IMG/VR virus record: IMGVR_UViG_3300037808_000947
Coordinates: 1 to 21,370 of that record
Reading direction: 5' to 3' (one strand)
DNA from: a virus
DNA length: 21,370 nucleotides
Shown: piece by piece, positions 10,398 to 15,273 of the stretch
How positions within the stretch are numbered: the first letter of the stretch is position 1
How the letters are laid out: every line of letters begins with the position of its first letter
Made by a program: the position numbers and the translations under genes
The notes under the pieces: generated by a model
The model's database searches: none
Seen by the model: the letters and a program-made list of their open reading frames with translations, nothing else
What the model was told of the DNA's origin: nothing

Positions 10398-10873
10398 GAC
10401 GCGGCCCATTCCACGCGCCCGGCGGCGATGCTCGCCCGCTCGCCGTCGGTGGCGCACTGCGCGAGGAGCTCCAGCCGGAACGACTCGGCCTCCGCGTCCT
10501 GGTCGGTGTCGGCGGCGAACTCACCCCCGTAGAGGTCCGACTGACCGCCGGAGGCTCGCCAGTACAGGAGGACGCCCGGAGCCGGGAGGGTCTGACCGGC
10601 GAGCATCTCTTGGACGCGGTTGGCCTCCTGCTCCTGGGCGTCCATCTCGGCGTCCTCGACCTCCTCCTGGGCGTCCATCTCGGCGTCCTCGGCGGCGAGG
10701 TCAGCGAGGTCAGCGAGGTCTTCGCTGATAGTGGACCAGCGAGCGTCCGCGCTCGCTTCCGCTGCGGCGTGGAGACGGTCAAGGCGTGCGTTGGTCGCCG
10801 GGTCGATGGTGTCGAGGGTGTCGGCTTCGTTGATAGCGGCGAGGTAGGCGGCTGCGGCGGTCAAGTCGGTCAT
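10394..10873 (-). CDS. Acidic Ala-rich protein with internal repeat, unknown
   Basis: ATG 10873 follows a clear GAGGAGAG ribosome-binding site. The 159-residue product is acidic and Ala-rich, with a helical N-terminal half (YLAAINEADTLDTIDPATNARLDRLHAAAEA), a short repeat LADLADLA and a tandem repeat DAEMDAQEEVE / DAEMDAQEQEA at about 62-83, suggesting an extended coiled-coil. The C-terminal part (GVLLYWRASGGQSDLYGGEF) may be a small folded domain. The GCG-rich codon style differs from the CTCC/GAGG-rich phage backbone. No family was recognised. It is coupled by GTGA to the following small basic protein; acidic DNA-mimic or scaffold roles are conceivable but unsupported. Confidence 0.75.
   Translation of the reverse strand: MTDLTAAAAYLAAINEADTLDTIDPATNARLDRLHAAAEASADARWSTISEDLADLADLAAEDAEMDAQEEVEDAEMDAQEQEANRVQEMLAGQTLPAPGVLLYWRASGGQSDLYGGEFAADTDQDAEAESFRLELLAQCATDGERASIAAGRVEWAAS
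10631..10720 (-). repeat. Tandem repeats inside the 159-aa gene
   Basis: A 28-bp sequence occurs twice with a 33-bp period (10631-10658 and 10664-10691), encoding the DAEMDAQE repeat. It is followed by three nearly identical 9-bp units based on GCGAGGTCA (10695-10720), encoding the Ala-Asp-Leu repeat. The repeats are in frame, so copy number changes would preserve the reading frame. Confidence 0.85.
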
Positions 10874-11340: not shown

Positions 11341-11396
11341 GGGAGAAGACTAAACGAAACGGGAAGGAATGGGAAACAAAAGGGAAGAAAAGGGAA
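11341..11396. promoter_or_regulatory. Phased GGGAA repeat leader with shared 21-bp element
   Basis: The gap 11304-11408 is AT-richer than the rest. GGGA runs start at 11341, 11361, 11371, 11382 and 11392, that is mostly every 10-11 bp, one helical turn apart. Bases 11356-11376 match the opposite strand of 15314-15334 at 18 of 21 positions. The element lies upstream of the leftward gene at 11303, so a regulator or initiator binding array is likely. A promoter could not be placed firmly. Confidence 0.45.
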
Positions 11397-11406
11397 AGTA
11401 TTTCCC
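11388..11406 (-). terminator. Possible intrinsic terminator of the replication operon
   Basis: On the minus strand, two bases after the 157-aa gene stop, GGGAAA-TAC-TTTCCC forms a 6-bp hairpin (11392-11406), and the strand then reads TTTTCTTCCCTTTTGTTT. A short stem followed by a T-rich run at the end of an operon fits a weak intrinsic terminator. The T-richness is also part of the phased repeat array, so the two roles may be combined. Confidence 0.45.
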
Positions 11407-11408
11407 GC

Positions 11409-11882
11409 TCACCCCTTGCCGCAGTCGATTCGGAGGACCTCCTGGAGGGCCTGGAGGTCCCGATAGTCCGCCTCCGCTCGCTCGGTCTGGACGACATCCC
11501 CGCCGGGGAGCCGGAGGTAGACCTCAGACCACCGGAGGGCCTGGGAGTACCAGGGGTCCTCGGGGTCCGGCTCTCCGTCCGGTCCTCGCCTGACCCGGGC
11601 GTCCGCAAGGCCCCATAGGTGGAAGGCCCGGAGCTTCCGCTGGTAGCTCGCCCACCGGCTCCAGAGGGCGGCCACCGGGCGAACGGTCGATTGCTTCTCC
11701 GGGTCCCACCGAGGAGGGAGGGAGGCGACCTCGTGGGGGATGGCTGCGGACTTGACCGCCCGCGCGTATTGACGGGCCGCCCAGGCTCCCCACTCGGTCG
11801 GAGAGGGCTCGCGCCGGGTCGGGGGAGGGCTCCCCGCTCGCCGGTACATCGCAAGGCTCAGGAGGAAGGCTCCGGGGCGCAT
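11409..11882 (-). CDS. Unknown protein following helicase, 157 aa
   Basis: ATG 11882 shares one base with the helicase stop (TGATG) and has GGGGAGGA just upstream. The frame is open far further upstream, but that part is a shadow of the helicase gene. The product is rich in Arg, Trp, Ala and Pro, with helical segments (EWGAWAARQYARAVKSAA; WSRWASYQRKLRAFHLWGLADARVRR) and an acidic/polar C-terminus. No motif was recognised. Coupling to the helicase suggests a role in replication, such as a loader or helper protein, but that is inferred only from position. Confidence 0.75.
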   Translation of the reverse strand: MRPGAFLLSLAMYRRAGSPPPTRREPSPTEWGAWAARQYARAVKSAAIPHEVASLPPRWDPEKQSTVRPVAALWSRWASYQRKLRAFHLWGLADARVRRGPDGEPDPEDPWYSQALRWSEVYLRLPGGDVVQTERAEADYRDLQALQEVLRIDCGKG

Positions 11883-13219
11883 CAATCCTCCCCCCAAGTC
11901 TGGGCCGCTCCGGTCGCAGGAGGAGCGTAGTCGGTAAACCAGCCCTCCCCGGGGCTGAAACTCGCCGGGACGGTTACATGGGCTCGCCCGTTCCTCTGCT
12001 TCTCCAGGATTAGCTCCACCTTGCTCGGCTCCTTCGCCATTCGGTTGTATGCGACCTCGCGGTACACGAAGAGGATGGAGTCCGCGTCTTGCTCCAGGGC
12101 TCCCGACTCCCGGAGGTCGGAGGCCATCGGGCGGCGGTCCTTCCGGGAGTCCACCCCCCGGTTGAGTTGACTCAAGACGAGGCCGCAGAGCCCCGAAGAG
12201 GAGCAGAGGGAGGAGAGGGCCTCCGAGGCGTTGGCAATCTCCTGCTCCCGGGAGTCCCTCCGGGGAAGCCGCATTTTCTGGAGGTAGTCCACGACGAAGG
12301 CGACGATGCCGTGACGGGCCTTCGCGATTCGGATGGAGGAGAGGACCTCGGAGAGTGACTTCGCCCGGTAGTCCATCCACATCGGGACCCCCGCCCAGGA
12401 TGCCGTCCCGGCTCGCTCCTGCTCGTGGATGTCTCCAGACATCGAGAGGGAGGAGGAATACATCCGTTCACTCAGGGAGTCCCCGCCCATCTCCACGGAG
12501 ACGAACAAGACCGGGCCGTGTCTGCTCGCTATCCCTCGGGCGAGGGTCAACGCCAGCTGGGTCTTCCCCATCCCAGGACGGGCCGCAATAAGCCCATAGT
12601 GTCCGGGGTGATACTTGAGGACCCGGTCCAGGGCTCGGAGCCCGGTGGTTAGGTGGTGGTCTACCTCCTCCCCCCTTCGGATACGTCCCGCCCGGACGGT
12701 AGCCCTCTCGACCATCGTGGAGGCCAGCACGATGCCCTCCCCCGATGTCCGGGAGGAGACCCGGAGGAGGGCCTCTTCCATCTCCTCCTGCATCCGGGCC
12801 GAGTCTGCCCCCCCTTGGTGGAGGGCCGTGGACATTTGAGCGGCCTCCAGGAGCGTCCTCCGTGCCCGGAACTCGCGGAGGGTCTGGACGTAGGTCTCCA
12901 GGTTTGTCCGGCGAGCCGGGACCCTCCCCAGGTTCGTGACGGTCTGGACAAGGTGCCCGAAGTCGGGGAAGGGCCGCCCCCGCCCCACGTTGGACTCGTG
13001 CCTCTCCAGCACGGTCGCTTCATCCGGCCCGATGCCCTTTTGACGGTCCAGGACCATCCCCTCCCACATCGCCCGCAGGTGCGGGGCCGTGAAGTCACCC
13101 TCCTGGAGCCCCAGTACCAGGGCTTCGTCCACCACGGTCGGGTCCCTCAGTCCCAGAGCCACCACCGCCGTCTCCGACTGGTCCGCCCGCTCTTTCCTCC
13201 TTGCTCCCTCGGTCTCCAT
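11882..13219 (-). CDS. Replicative DNA helicase, DnaB-type
   Basis: ATG 13219 is preferred because AAGGAG lies six bases upstream; the in-frame ATG at 13258 has no such site and overlaps the preceding gene. The 445-residue protein has a DnaB-like N-terminal domain (DPTVVDEALVLGLQEGDF at 26-43) and a RecA-like motor with Walker A ARPGMGKT at 213-220, Walker B VVDYLQ at 309-314, LSQLNR at 349-354, DLRESGALEQDAD at 368-380 and KQRNG at 407-411. It would unwind phage DNA at the fork. It follows the initiator gene with a C5 methyltransferase between them. Confidence 0.93.
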   Translation of the reverse strand: METEGARRKERADQSETAVVALGLRDPTVVDEALVLGLQEGDFTAPHLRAMWEGMVLDRQKGIGPDEATVLERHESNVGRGRPFPDFGHLVQTVTNLGRVPARRTNLETYVQTLREFRARRTLLEAAQMSTALHQGGADSARMQEEMEEALLRVSSRTSGEGIVLASTMVERATVRAGRIRRGEEVDHHLTTGLRALDRVLKYHPGHYGLIAARPGMGKTQLALTLARGIASRHGPVLFVSVEMGGDSLSERMYSSSLSMSGDIHEQERAGTASWAGVPMWMDYRAKSLSEVLSSIRIAKARHGIVAFVVDYLQKMRLPRRDSREQEIANASEALSSLCSSSGLCGLVLSQLNRGVDSRKDRRPMASDLRESGALEQDADSILFVYREVAYNRMAKEPSKVELILEKQRNGRAHVTVPASFSPGEGWFTDYAPPATGAAQTWGED

Positions 13220-13236
13220 CTCGCTCTCCTTCTTGG

Positions 13237-14007
13237 TTAATCGTTCAGGACCTGCCATGCGAGCGCAGCCACCGCCGGAACTTGACCGTTTCCAGCGGCG
13301 CGGAGCCTGTCCATTTGGTCGGGAACCTCATTAGCCAATCGATAAAGTTGGGGTTGAGGTATTGCGGGTCCTCTTTGCAAGTCCTCAAGCCCTCGGATGT
13401 CTTCGCCCCACGATAATGAGGGCTCCCCCGGAACCGTTTGCTGCTGCTGCCCTTGTTCATGTTCGCGCTCGGGGTCGGAAGCGAGAACCCAGACCCGCTC
13501 CCTTTTATGCAGGGCACCCGTACAGCACGCTCCCAACACTCCCCACCGTGCATCGAACCCCATCGCGGCCAAGTCTCCGAGAACAACGCCCATCCCCCGA
13601 GAAGTGAGCATTGGTGAGTTCTCCACGAAGACGTGCCGGGGTCCCACTTCGCGAACGATCCGCGCCATCTCTCCCCAGAGACCGGAACGTGCGCCGGATA
13701 GACCCGCGCCCTTACCCGCTGCGCTGATGTCCTGACAAGGGAACCCCCCGCAGATGACCAACTGATCTCGGATGACCCTGAGCCCTTCGATGAACTCGGA
13801 GCAGTCGGGGTTGTCGGCTCGGAAGGTCGAGACATCATCCCAGACGGGGAAGGGCGGGAGCAGTCCGTCCCGCTGCCGCTGGAGCAGTACGCCCCCAGGA
13901 TAGGGTTCGATTTCAACAGCGCCGACCGGCCAGTGACCGAGCAAAGCGTCCGCAAGGATTCCGCCGCCCGCTCCGGCGAACAAGTGGAATGTGAATAGCT
14001 GCTCCAT
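13237..14007 (-). CDS. DNA cytosine-5 methyltransferase
   Basis: ATG 14007 begins one base after the upstream stop, with GGAGGAAGG a little further upstream. The 256-residue protein shows C5-methyltransferase motifs in order: I FHLFAGAGGGILAD at 7-20, IV GGFPCQDIS at 87-95 (catalytic Cys91), VI VFVENSP at 126-132 (Glu129), VIII KRERVWVLA at 168-176, and IX/X AAGNGQVPAVAAL at 237-249. Length is on the short side, leaving a small target-recognition region (about 177-235, Gln-rich). It would add methyl groups to cytosine in phage DNA, perhaps to block restriction. Its position between initiator and helicase and its two GATC sites suggest insertion into the operon. Target sequence unknown. Confidence 0.9.
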   Translation of the reverse strand: MEQLFTFHLFAGAGGGILADALLGHWPVGAVEIEPYPGGVLLQRQRDGLLPPFPVWDDVSTFRADNPDCSEFIEGLRVIRDQLVICGGFPCQDISAAGKGAGLSGARSGLWGEMARIVREVGPRHVFVENSPMLTSRGMGVVLGDLAAMGFDARWGVLGACCTGALHKRERVWVLASDPEREHEQGQQQQTVPGEPSLSWGEDIRGLEDLQRGPAIPQPQLYRLANEVPDQMDRLRAAGNGQVPAVAALAWQVLND

Positions 14008-14008
14008 G

Positions 14009-15058
14009 TCATACCCTTCCTCCGAGCCACGCCAACAGCGCGGACGGCTTCGGGGGCCTCGTGACCCCCGCCTCTTCACAAGCCCCGAGGAGTCCGGCCT
14101 CGGTGACCTTCTCCCCCAGTGCGGTCCGTTCATCTCTCCACCGCAGCAACCAGCGGTGGTTCTCCTGCATCCACTCCTGGGTTGGGTCCACCGCTCCCGA
14201 GGAGATGGCGGCCCCGCCCTGACGGGCCTGGATGATTAGGCGGTCAAAATGTTCCCGGACCTTCCGCCCGCTCAGAAGGTTGGGCCTCCAGAAGCCCGAG
14301 GGGTCCTGGATGTGCGCCCACCGGATAACGGCGCGCACCTCCCCCTCTGAGGCTCCGTCAATGCGTAGGAGCTTCTCCAGGTCCACCTCCCACCCCACGA
14401 CGCCCTCGGCCCCGTCGCGCTTCCCGGCGACTCGGGGAGAGTGGGACCGGATGGACTCCCGGAGGAGGACCGCCAGCCCTCGCGCGGGAGAGGTATTCCC
14501 TTCTTCCTTCTTCTTCTTCTTCTTGGTTCTTGTTCTTGGTTCTTGATTAGGGGATGTCTTTGGCAAAGGCTTAGGGGAAGGCTTTGGCAAAGGCTTCCCG
14601 GAAGGCTTCCCCAGGTCCGGGAACGTCGCATCGAAGGCGCGGAGGAAGGCTTCCCCCTGGAGCCTCTCCCGGATACCTCGGATGGCCTTCTCTCGGAGGT
14701 CCGTCTCGGGGAGCTCCCGGAAGGCCGACCCCCAGGACTTGACGACGTTCGGGCTCGCTGGCGGGTTGTGGGTCACCGCCTTCGGGAGCCATACCAGAGG
14801 AGGCCTCTGAGACCGCTCCAGGAGCCCCGCATCCTCTAGCTCCTGGAGGGCTCGCCGGGTCTTCCCCGCCTCCCATCCAAGACCGTCCGCGAGAGTCCCG
14901 AGACCCGCGCGAAACAGCCCCGGGATGGGTCCCTGGACCTCTCCGGTGAGCAGGTATATCCAGAGGGTCTGAGCGTTAGGCTCCGGCCCCGAGAGGCCCA
15001 GGAACTTCGCGTCCGACCACATACCCCGGGTCACGAGGGAATAGCGTCTCCGGGTCAC
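14009..15058 (-). CDS. Replication initiator-like protein
   Basis: The start is GTG 15058, overlapping the upstream stop by GTGA. The 349-residue protein has a winged-helix-like N-terminal domain at about 5-95 (DGLGWEAGKTRRALQELEDAGLLER), a low-complexity linker at about 150-188 (KPLPKPSPKPLPK, then a run of six Lys), and a C-terminal part at about 195-280 whose sequence VIRWAHIQDPSGFWRPNLLS and VREHFDRLI resembles the ends of phage DnaD-type or replisome-organiser proteins that recruit helicase. Position ahead of the DnaB-type helicase supports an initiator or loader role. The linker DNA has origin-like repeats (see separate entries). Assignment is by architecture and context. Confidence 0.7.
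   Translation of the reverse strand: MTRRRYSLVTRGMWSDAKFLGLSGPEPNAQTLWIYLLTGEVQGPIPGLFRAGLGTLADGLGWEAGKTRRALQELEDAGLLERSQRPPLVWLPKAVTHNPPASPNVVKSWGSAFRELPETDLREKAIRGIRERLQGEAFLRAFDATFPDLGKPSGKPLPKPSPKPLPKTSPNQEPRTRTKKKKKKEEGNTSPARGLAVLLRESIRSHSPRVAGKRDGAEGVVGWEVDLEKLLRIDGASEGEVRAVIRWAHIQDPSGFWRPNLLSGRKVREHFDRLIIQARQGGAAISSGAVDPTQEWMQENHRWLLRWRDERTALGEKVTEAGLLGACEEAGVTRPPKPSALLAWLGGRV
14494..14612. repeat. Iteron-like array and AT-rich tract inside initiator gene
   Basis: From 14558 to 14605 four consecutive 12-bp units have the form CTT-N5-AAG-G, three of them with near-perfect dyad symmetry (CTTTGGCAAAG twice, CTTCCCGGAAG once). Beside them lies a T-rich, pyrimidine-biased tract (14494-14550) with a perfect tandem 13-mer, TTCTTGGTTCTTG, at 14520-14532 and 14533-14545. 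The DNA encodes the Pro/Lys and poly-Lys linker of the initiator. The layout resembles lambda-type origins, with iterons and an AT-rich unwinding region inside the initiator gene. Origin function is inferred. Confidence 0.55.
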
Positions 15059-15273
15059 TTGCGGAGGCTCGCAGCGAAGTCTTCCAGACCAGCGGCCTTC
15101 TCAGCCTCGCGGGCCTCCTTGCGGAGCCAGCCGTCCAGGGCCTCCTCCCTCACGCGCCACTTTCCGGCCAGCTTGAACGCGGGAATGGTTCCGGCCTGGG
15201 CCATCGTGTAGGCCGTGTTCGCGGACACGCCCAAGCGCTTCGCAACGTCGGTGATTCTCAGCAGATTTGACAT
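15055..15273 (-). CDS. HTH_17/MerR-like DNA-binding protein
   Basis: ATG 15273 has GGAGAAG about eight bases upstream. The 72-residue protein is a compact helix-turn-helix of the excisionase/HTH_17 type: LRITDVAKRLGVSANTAYTMAQAGTIPAFKLAGKWRVREEALDGWLRK at about 5-52 has the usual helix-turn-helix followed by a beta wing. It is the first gene of the replication operon and sits next to the divergent promoter region, so an autoregulator or replication regulator is likely; an excisionase is less likely because no integrase gene was seen. It is coupled by GTGA to the initiator gene. Confidence 0.8.
   Translation of the reverse strand: MSNLLRITDVAKRLGVSANTAYTMAQAGTIPAFKLAGKWRVREEALDGWLRKEAREAEKAAGLEDFAASLRK

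Follow-up and report, generated by a model that had tools for sequence, protein, structure and literature searches.

In phage lambda, iterons with dyad symmetry lie in the middle of gene O, beside an AT-rich tract needed for unwinding. They are four 19-bp imperfect inverted repeats, and Stx phages have six (PMC7466680). In the plasmid pSK41, the N-terminal winged helix-turn-helix (wHTH) domain of Rep binds four Rep boxes in the central part of rep, the linker encoded by the origin is dispensable, and both Rep domains resemble DnaD (PMC5703833). In phage SPP1, gp38 binds direct repeats in its own gene beside an AT-rich unwinding element (oriL), with gp39 as the loader and gp40 as the DnaB-family helicase (PMC6316719).

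Here we analyze a linear virus contig of 21,370 bp with about 67% GC, the whole of which is called the window below. Positions 14494–14612 are very probably a phage replication origin located in the linker-coding part of the initiator gene. The earlier note had likened this region to the origin of lambdoid phages, and the likeness stands as to dyad-symmetric iterons midway along the initiator gene and a flanking AT-rich tract, but it does not extend to the protein profile or the iteron type. Neither the window protein (E ≤ 1) nor any of 44 family members (E ≤ 0.01) matched the Pfam profile Phage_rep_O, and the window sites are not the 19-bp inverted repeats that characterize the lambda O family. 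Lambda combines such iterons with a separate P loader, whereas the window has 7-bp dyads every 12 bp and, unlike lambda, an initiator with a DnaD-like C-terminal domain together with a phage-encoded DnaB-like helicase.

Among the RepA_N initiators (pSK41 and pTZ2162), that of pSK41 is comparable to the window initiator in having boxes within rep, a linker-coding origin, and DnaD-like domains, but the sequence and spacing of the boxes are different, and the RepA_N domain PF06970 was not matched by the window protein or the 44 members. SPP1 oriL is alike in layout, since it is also a phage initiator gene with repeats and an AT-rich element, whereas SPP1 has a second origin, oriR, approximately 13 kb away. 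The layout is already known from lambda O, SPP1 gp38, and RepA_N plasmids, and the window member is neither lambda O nor RepA_N by profile. The open-access papers searched contained no description of the 12-bp site family AAG-S-CTT/AAC-S-GTT, its frame independence, the cluster over wHTH codons, or the pairing of a residue with the site.

Initiator gene and its neighborhood

The initiator gene (14009–15058, minus strand) encodes 349 residues, which form an N-terminal winged-helix domain, a disordered linker, and a DnaD-like C-terminal domain according to PHROG matches and an AlphaFold2 model. The N-terminal part matches PHROG 25711 and PHROG 1701, the latter being a DnaD-like helicase loader profile (E 1.5e-8, residues 4–185). 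Residues 174–284 match PHROG 2514, also a DnaD-like helicase loader (E 4.7e-14), and the only O-like matches are PHROGs 391 and 277, over the C-terminal part. The annotation of PHROG 1701/25711 as a DnaD-like helicase loader says nothing about an origin or in-gene sites. In the model, the N-terminal winged-helix domain is confidently predicted, the linker over the DNA sites is disordered, and the C-terminal domain is helical. The best Foldseek matches of the model are weak (E 0.07–0.18, target TM 0.44–0.48) and include 4pql, 4pta, 4pt7, and 5kbj; among them are RepA_N-type initiators from plasmids and a Rep–DNA complex. The N-terminal domain also resembles MarR-type folds. Judging from the PHROG matches of both the N- and C-terminal parts and from the neighboring genes, the label "initiator" given in the first reading is sound.

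A DnaB-like replicative helicase (11882–13258, minus strand; Pfam DnaB_C, E 3.2e-53; PHROG 19, E 2.5e-68) is encoded two genes downstream of the initiator and is presumed to be loaded at the origin. Between the two genes lies a C5 cytosine methyltransferase gene (13237–14133, minus strand; Pfam DNA_methylase, E 4.9e-21), which is not regarded as belonging to the origin. Its open reading frame overlaps the 3' part of the initiator gene, and its likely true start (MEQLFTF) is located at the initiator stop codon, suggesting translational coupling. Upstream of the initiator is a small HTH_17/excisionase-like gene (15055–15273, minus strand; Pfam and PHROG profiles). Its product was considered as a reader of the sites described below and rejected, as the gene occurs only in L005 among the loci L005–L135.

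Other repeats in the window should also be mentioned. Downstream of the helicase gene, an A-rich tandem repeat, GAAAAGGGAA (11352–11397), with periods of about 10 and 21 bp coincides with a local dip in GC. A near-perfect (96%) 33-bp tandem pair is found in a strongly skewed region (10627–10691), and a perfect 9-bp repeat follows just after the 33-bp copies (10695–10720).

The GC skew proposed as a check by the earlier note turned out to be uninformative. The cumulative minimum at approximately 15.25–15.75 kb coincides with a switch of the coding strand. The record, moreover, covers a fragment of only 21 kb, and its skew gives no independent support for an origin.

Site array and adjoining tract in the window

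The main iteron array (14566–14608) consists of four AAGGCTT heptamers starting at 14566, 14578, 14590, and 14602, with a period of 12 bp. Each is a 7-bp hyphenated dyad, AAG-S-CTT. Four consecutive 12-bp units of the form CTT-N5-AAGG, several with dyad symmetry, had been described earlier; they are indeed present at 14558–14605 as CTTTGGCAAAGG, CTTAGGGGAAGG, CTTTGGCAAAGG, and CTTCCCGGAAGG, and their symmetry, when read in register, is that of the four heptamers. A degenerate fifth unit, ATGTCTT (14554–14560; AAGACAT on the coding strand), lies in register 12 bp from the array, and degenerate last units are common across the homologue family. An isolated AAGGCTT (14646–14652) is located in a codon frame unlike that of the array, reading GAA GCC TTC (Glu-Ala-Phe) on the coding strand. 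Many relatives have a further group of sites over their wHTH codons, which the window lacks.

The heptamer AAGSCTT occurs six times in the window versus 0.76 expected, and none of 100 shuffles reaches six. Triples of 7-bp dyads of any class at 12-bp spacing are absent from 100 Markov-1 windows. Synonymous codon resampling with the window's own usage gives a mean of 0.41 sites, and the five sites observed in the gene were reached in none of 10,000 resamplings.

Next to the array is the presumed unwinding tract (14494–14549), which is purine-rich on the coding strand and begins with TAATCAAGAAC (the family equivalent being CCTAATCAGGAACAGGAACAGG...). This is the single most AT-rich 56-bp segment of the record (64% AT), and its plus strand contains 33 T versus 3 A and is 84% pyrimidine, in agreement with the T-rich, strand-asymmetric tract noticed at first. 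The perfect tandem 13-mer reported within it is also there, as two copies of TTCTTGGTTCTTG (14520–14545, plus strand). It is a repeat at the DNA level, since 13 is not divisible by 3.

In this minus-strand gene, the array encodes KPLPKPSPKPLPKTSP and the tract encodes NQEPRTRTKKKKKKEE. The codons of both fall in a segment predicted to be disordered (pLDDT of about 56 or less, residues ~151–190), so the units do coincide with the linker between the two domains, as the first reading had placed them. All nine Pro codons in the linker are CCT or CCA, compared with 21% elsewhere, and GC3 is 0.53 in the linker versus 0.81.

Nearest relative

A single-protein IMG/VR search with P0001 gave no relative. 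The nearest relative, L005, was retrieved through a search with the helicase, which is 75% identical in L005. Its initiator is 57% identical to that of the window in a local alignment, and its linker peptide differs from that of the window in both sequence and length. The L005 initiator gene contains seven AAGSCTT, all those present in the locus (0.83 expected in the locus). The first three are 12 bp apart and occupy the same place as the window array. The sites are followed by an A-rich tract in which a 13-mer is imperfectly repeated in tandem (ATACAAGAGCAAG/ATACAAGAGGAAC). The isolated site at 14646–14652 in the window is absent from L005 (GAGAGCTTCC). A Pro to Ala exchange (CCT to GCT) in L005 relative to the window merely flips the center base of the dyad.

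Sites in the homologue family

IMG/VR was scanned with dyad patterns for two site types, AAG and AAC. The DNA-only pattern of three AAGSCTT at 12-bp spacing was found in at least 119 loci; among the matches listed, the array lies in a homologue of the initiator (>100 bits) in 85 of 119 loci. AACSGTT, first picked to serve as a negative control, proved to be the site of a sister group, as described later. CTTSAAG, which is matched in composition, was then run as a second control and gave 77 loci, none with the pattern in a homologue.

In many of the genes found by the pattern, the sites form two clusters, one over the codons of a wHTH helix (residues ~60–90) and the other over the linker. The former encodes a peptide of the EAFREAF type. 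In the linker cluster, part of the genes read the site as AAG-CCT-TCN (KPS), whereas others read it as GAA-GCC-TTC (EAF), and some genes switch the frame within a single linker array. The regions C-terminal to the array are diverse, while the site arrays stay. The earlier note had named a linker that is kept while the repeat spacing is lost as evidence against its proposal; the opposite was found, the 12-bp sites being kept while the peptide, the frame, and the C-terminal domain change.

Two further features of these genes should be noted. The helix encoded by the cluster over the wHTH codons (e.g., residues 73–84 in L105) is at the position of the wHTH recognition helix in the fold model, so these sites may code for a portion of their own recognition domain. 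The initiators of L017–L135 have a conserved N-terminal domain and site array with widely differing C-terminal regions, and the origin with the N-terminal domain thus seems to be a module accepting different loaders.

A second sample was chosen by protein only, using the block NxP[EAG]SPNV located between the two clusters, and comprises 135 homologues (80 viral and 55 genome loci). The density of AAGSCTT in this sample is 5.08/kb in the gene and 0.17/kb in the flanks, a 30-fold difference. The genes have 5.07 sites on average versus 1.24 after synonymous shuffles, with 133 of the 135 above expectation. Site spacing peaks at 12 bp (333 pairs), 24 bp, and 36 bp. The three reading frames hold 413, 265, and 7 sites, and 103 genes use two frames. 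Among the 64 dyad classes, AAG alone reaches two 12-bp pairs; this is the case in 60 of the 80 viral loci and 40 of the 55 genome loci.

The confinement to the gene bears on whether the sites might be a cluster for recombination, packaging, or methylation that came to be located in the initiator gene by chance. The adjoining C5 methyltransferase gene would suit such a cluster, but its sites are expected genome-wide, whereas AAGSCTT remains at the background level outside the gene, and P0003-like methyltransferases are not constant neighbors. We regard this explanation as very improbable.

PHROG 1701 and PHROG 25711 are both matched by 43 of the 44 members of the family alignment. The record titles give Beta- and Gammaproteobacteria, Desulfovibrio, Spirochaetes, and Planctomycetes for this phage and prophage group. 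Two copies, L319 and L320, are 57 kb apart in one contig of a Thermoplasmata MAG, an archaeal assignment that may be a binning error or may indicate an unusual host. Chris1 and pPE4, the named phages nearest to the N-terminal domain, have only one or two exact sites, and the pattern is not confirmed there. Klebsiella phage ST13-OXA48phi12.4 has two AACSGTT 220 bp apart, one of them in the linker, with near-matches and a CAGGAA-type tract. In phi297 and SOVA965, only the C-terminal domain is shared, and no array was seen.

Purine repeat tract in the family

A purine repeat tract follows the last site in 116–120 of the 135 genes and is found in two frames. Runs of CARGAN start after the last site in 120 genes, with a median of five and up to eleven copies, and all 774 kb of the 135 loci contain only 136 such runs. 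In the set found by the DNA pattern, the coding-strand A-T skew of the tract is +0.47, with positive values in 84 of 86 cases, and the tract is only modestly AT-rich (45% versus 41% AT). The window tract is markedly more AT-rich than the family average. The AT-rich unwinding region of the first reading therefore holds for the window, whereas the family tract is defined more by its purine/A asymmetry and the CARGAN hexamer than by AT-richness. The tracts of L092, L035, and L103 are built of 7-bp units (CAGGGAG, CAGGTAG, and ATCAGGA) and not of 6-bp units, indicating that the unit length is not tied to codons.

Conservation of the tract is also relevant to a regulatory role of the sites, in which the initiator or another regulator would bind them as an operator, either for autorepression or for the control of partition, with the origin elsewhere. 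Autoregulation is generally known among initiators, short repeated dyads suit regulators, and the MarR-type likeness of the N-terminal domain points in the same direction. However, the sites are in the middle of the gene, in the linker and not at a promoter, and adjoin a tract that is itself conserved, an arrangement like that of proven in-gene origins; the upstream HTH gene is not conserved together with the sites. An operator with the origin elsewhere is therefore considered unlikely, and an origin within the gene is the preferred reading.

Sister group and residue 102

The scan with AACSGTT gave 81 loci, of which 43 have the pattern in homologues of the initiator. Every frame is used by their sites (89, 86, and 67), and a single array in L137 contains all three. 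Sites of this form thus come in two types or more. The use of all three frames in the sister group shows that it is the DNA, not the peptide, that is conserved at the sites, and it rules out a purely peptide-level explanation.

Such an explanation would be selection for a Lys/Pro-rich linker that is flexible or binds nucleic acid, expanded by replication slippage. It would account for the KPLP/KPSP repeats, the Lys run, and a main repeat unit that is divisible by 3. It is at odds with the reading of one DNA site in two or even three frames, which yields KPS, EAF/KAL, NGS, or ETV peptides, with tract repeats that are likewise in differing frames and include 7-mers, with Pro/Ala swaps that flip the dyad center only, with codon usage departing from that of the genome, and with the second cluster in the folded wHTH part of relatives. 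The frame independence refutes linker selection as the sole cause, and we give it hardly any weight. The proposal that the DNA does double duty, as codons for the linker and as origin, is instead supported by these comparisons.

The position of Ser102 should be noted, since this column is the best discriminator of the site type outside the codons encoded by the sites. Among proteins found by the DNA pattern only, Ser occupies this column in 72 of the 76 non-redundant members of the AAG type, and Asn in all 29 of the AAC type; the four AAG-type exceptions with Asn are L035, L051, L080, and L135. The model places Ser102, within PASPNVV, before the helix of residues 103–115 and directly after the wing. 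L202 is 85% identical to the AAG-type L105 over 95 columns, yet its sites are AACSGTT and its residue is Asn. In the tree, L205 falls with the window and L005 (SH-aLRT 99) but differs from them in both site type and residue. In these two cases, the window/L005 versus L205 and the L105 group versus L202, close relatives appear to have switched the residue and the sites together. The best tree has ten site-type changes; strongly supported branches give two independent switches only, in which the residue follows the site type almost without exception.

These observations are suggestive of the residue–site pairing as a determinant of recognition. We tentatively propose, as a possibility of somewhat less than even weight, a recognition code in which Ser102 specifies AAG-S-CTT and Asn specifies AAC-S-GTT through the third base of the half-site. 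Specificity would be switched by the residue change together with rewriting of all the sites, in any frame, and loader domains would be freely exchanged.

Proposed initiation and implications

As far as sequences can tell, the region combines two features of an in-gene iteron origin, namely repeats of the initiator-binding type that lie in coding sequence and are conserved as DNA, and an adjacent tract of the unwinding type. By analogy with the known systems, we infer that the N-terminal winged-helix domain would bind the AAG-S-CTT dyads at 12-bp spacing, and that multimers assembled on the dyads would melt the repeat tract beside them, with its high AT content and strand asymmetry. The phage DnaB-like helicase would then be recruited or loaded by the DnaD-like C-terminal domain, and the origin would fire. 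The linker peptide may be mainly a by-product of the DNA sites, flexibility being its only need.

A probable replication origin is thereby assigned, from sequence alone, to a large and mostly uncultured group of phages and prophages, and a DNA pattern that finds such initiators is provided. With one DNA element placed in several reading frames, the family offers a clear case from nature in which DNA function takes precedence over protein sequence inside a gene. The paired change of residue and sites makes the co-evolution of initiator and origin directly testable.
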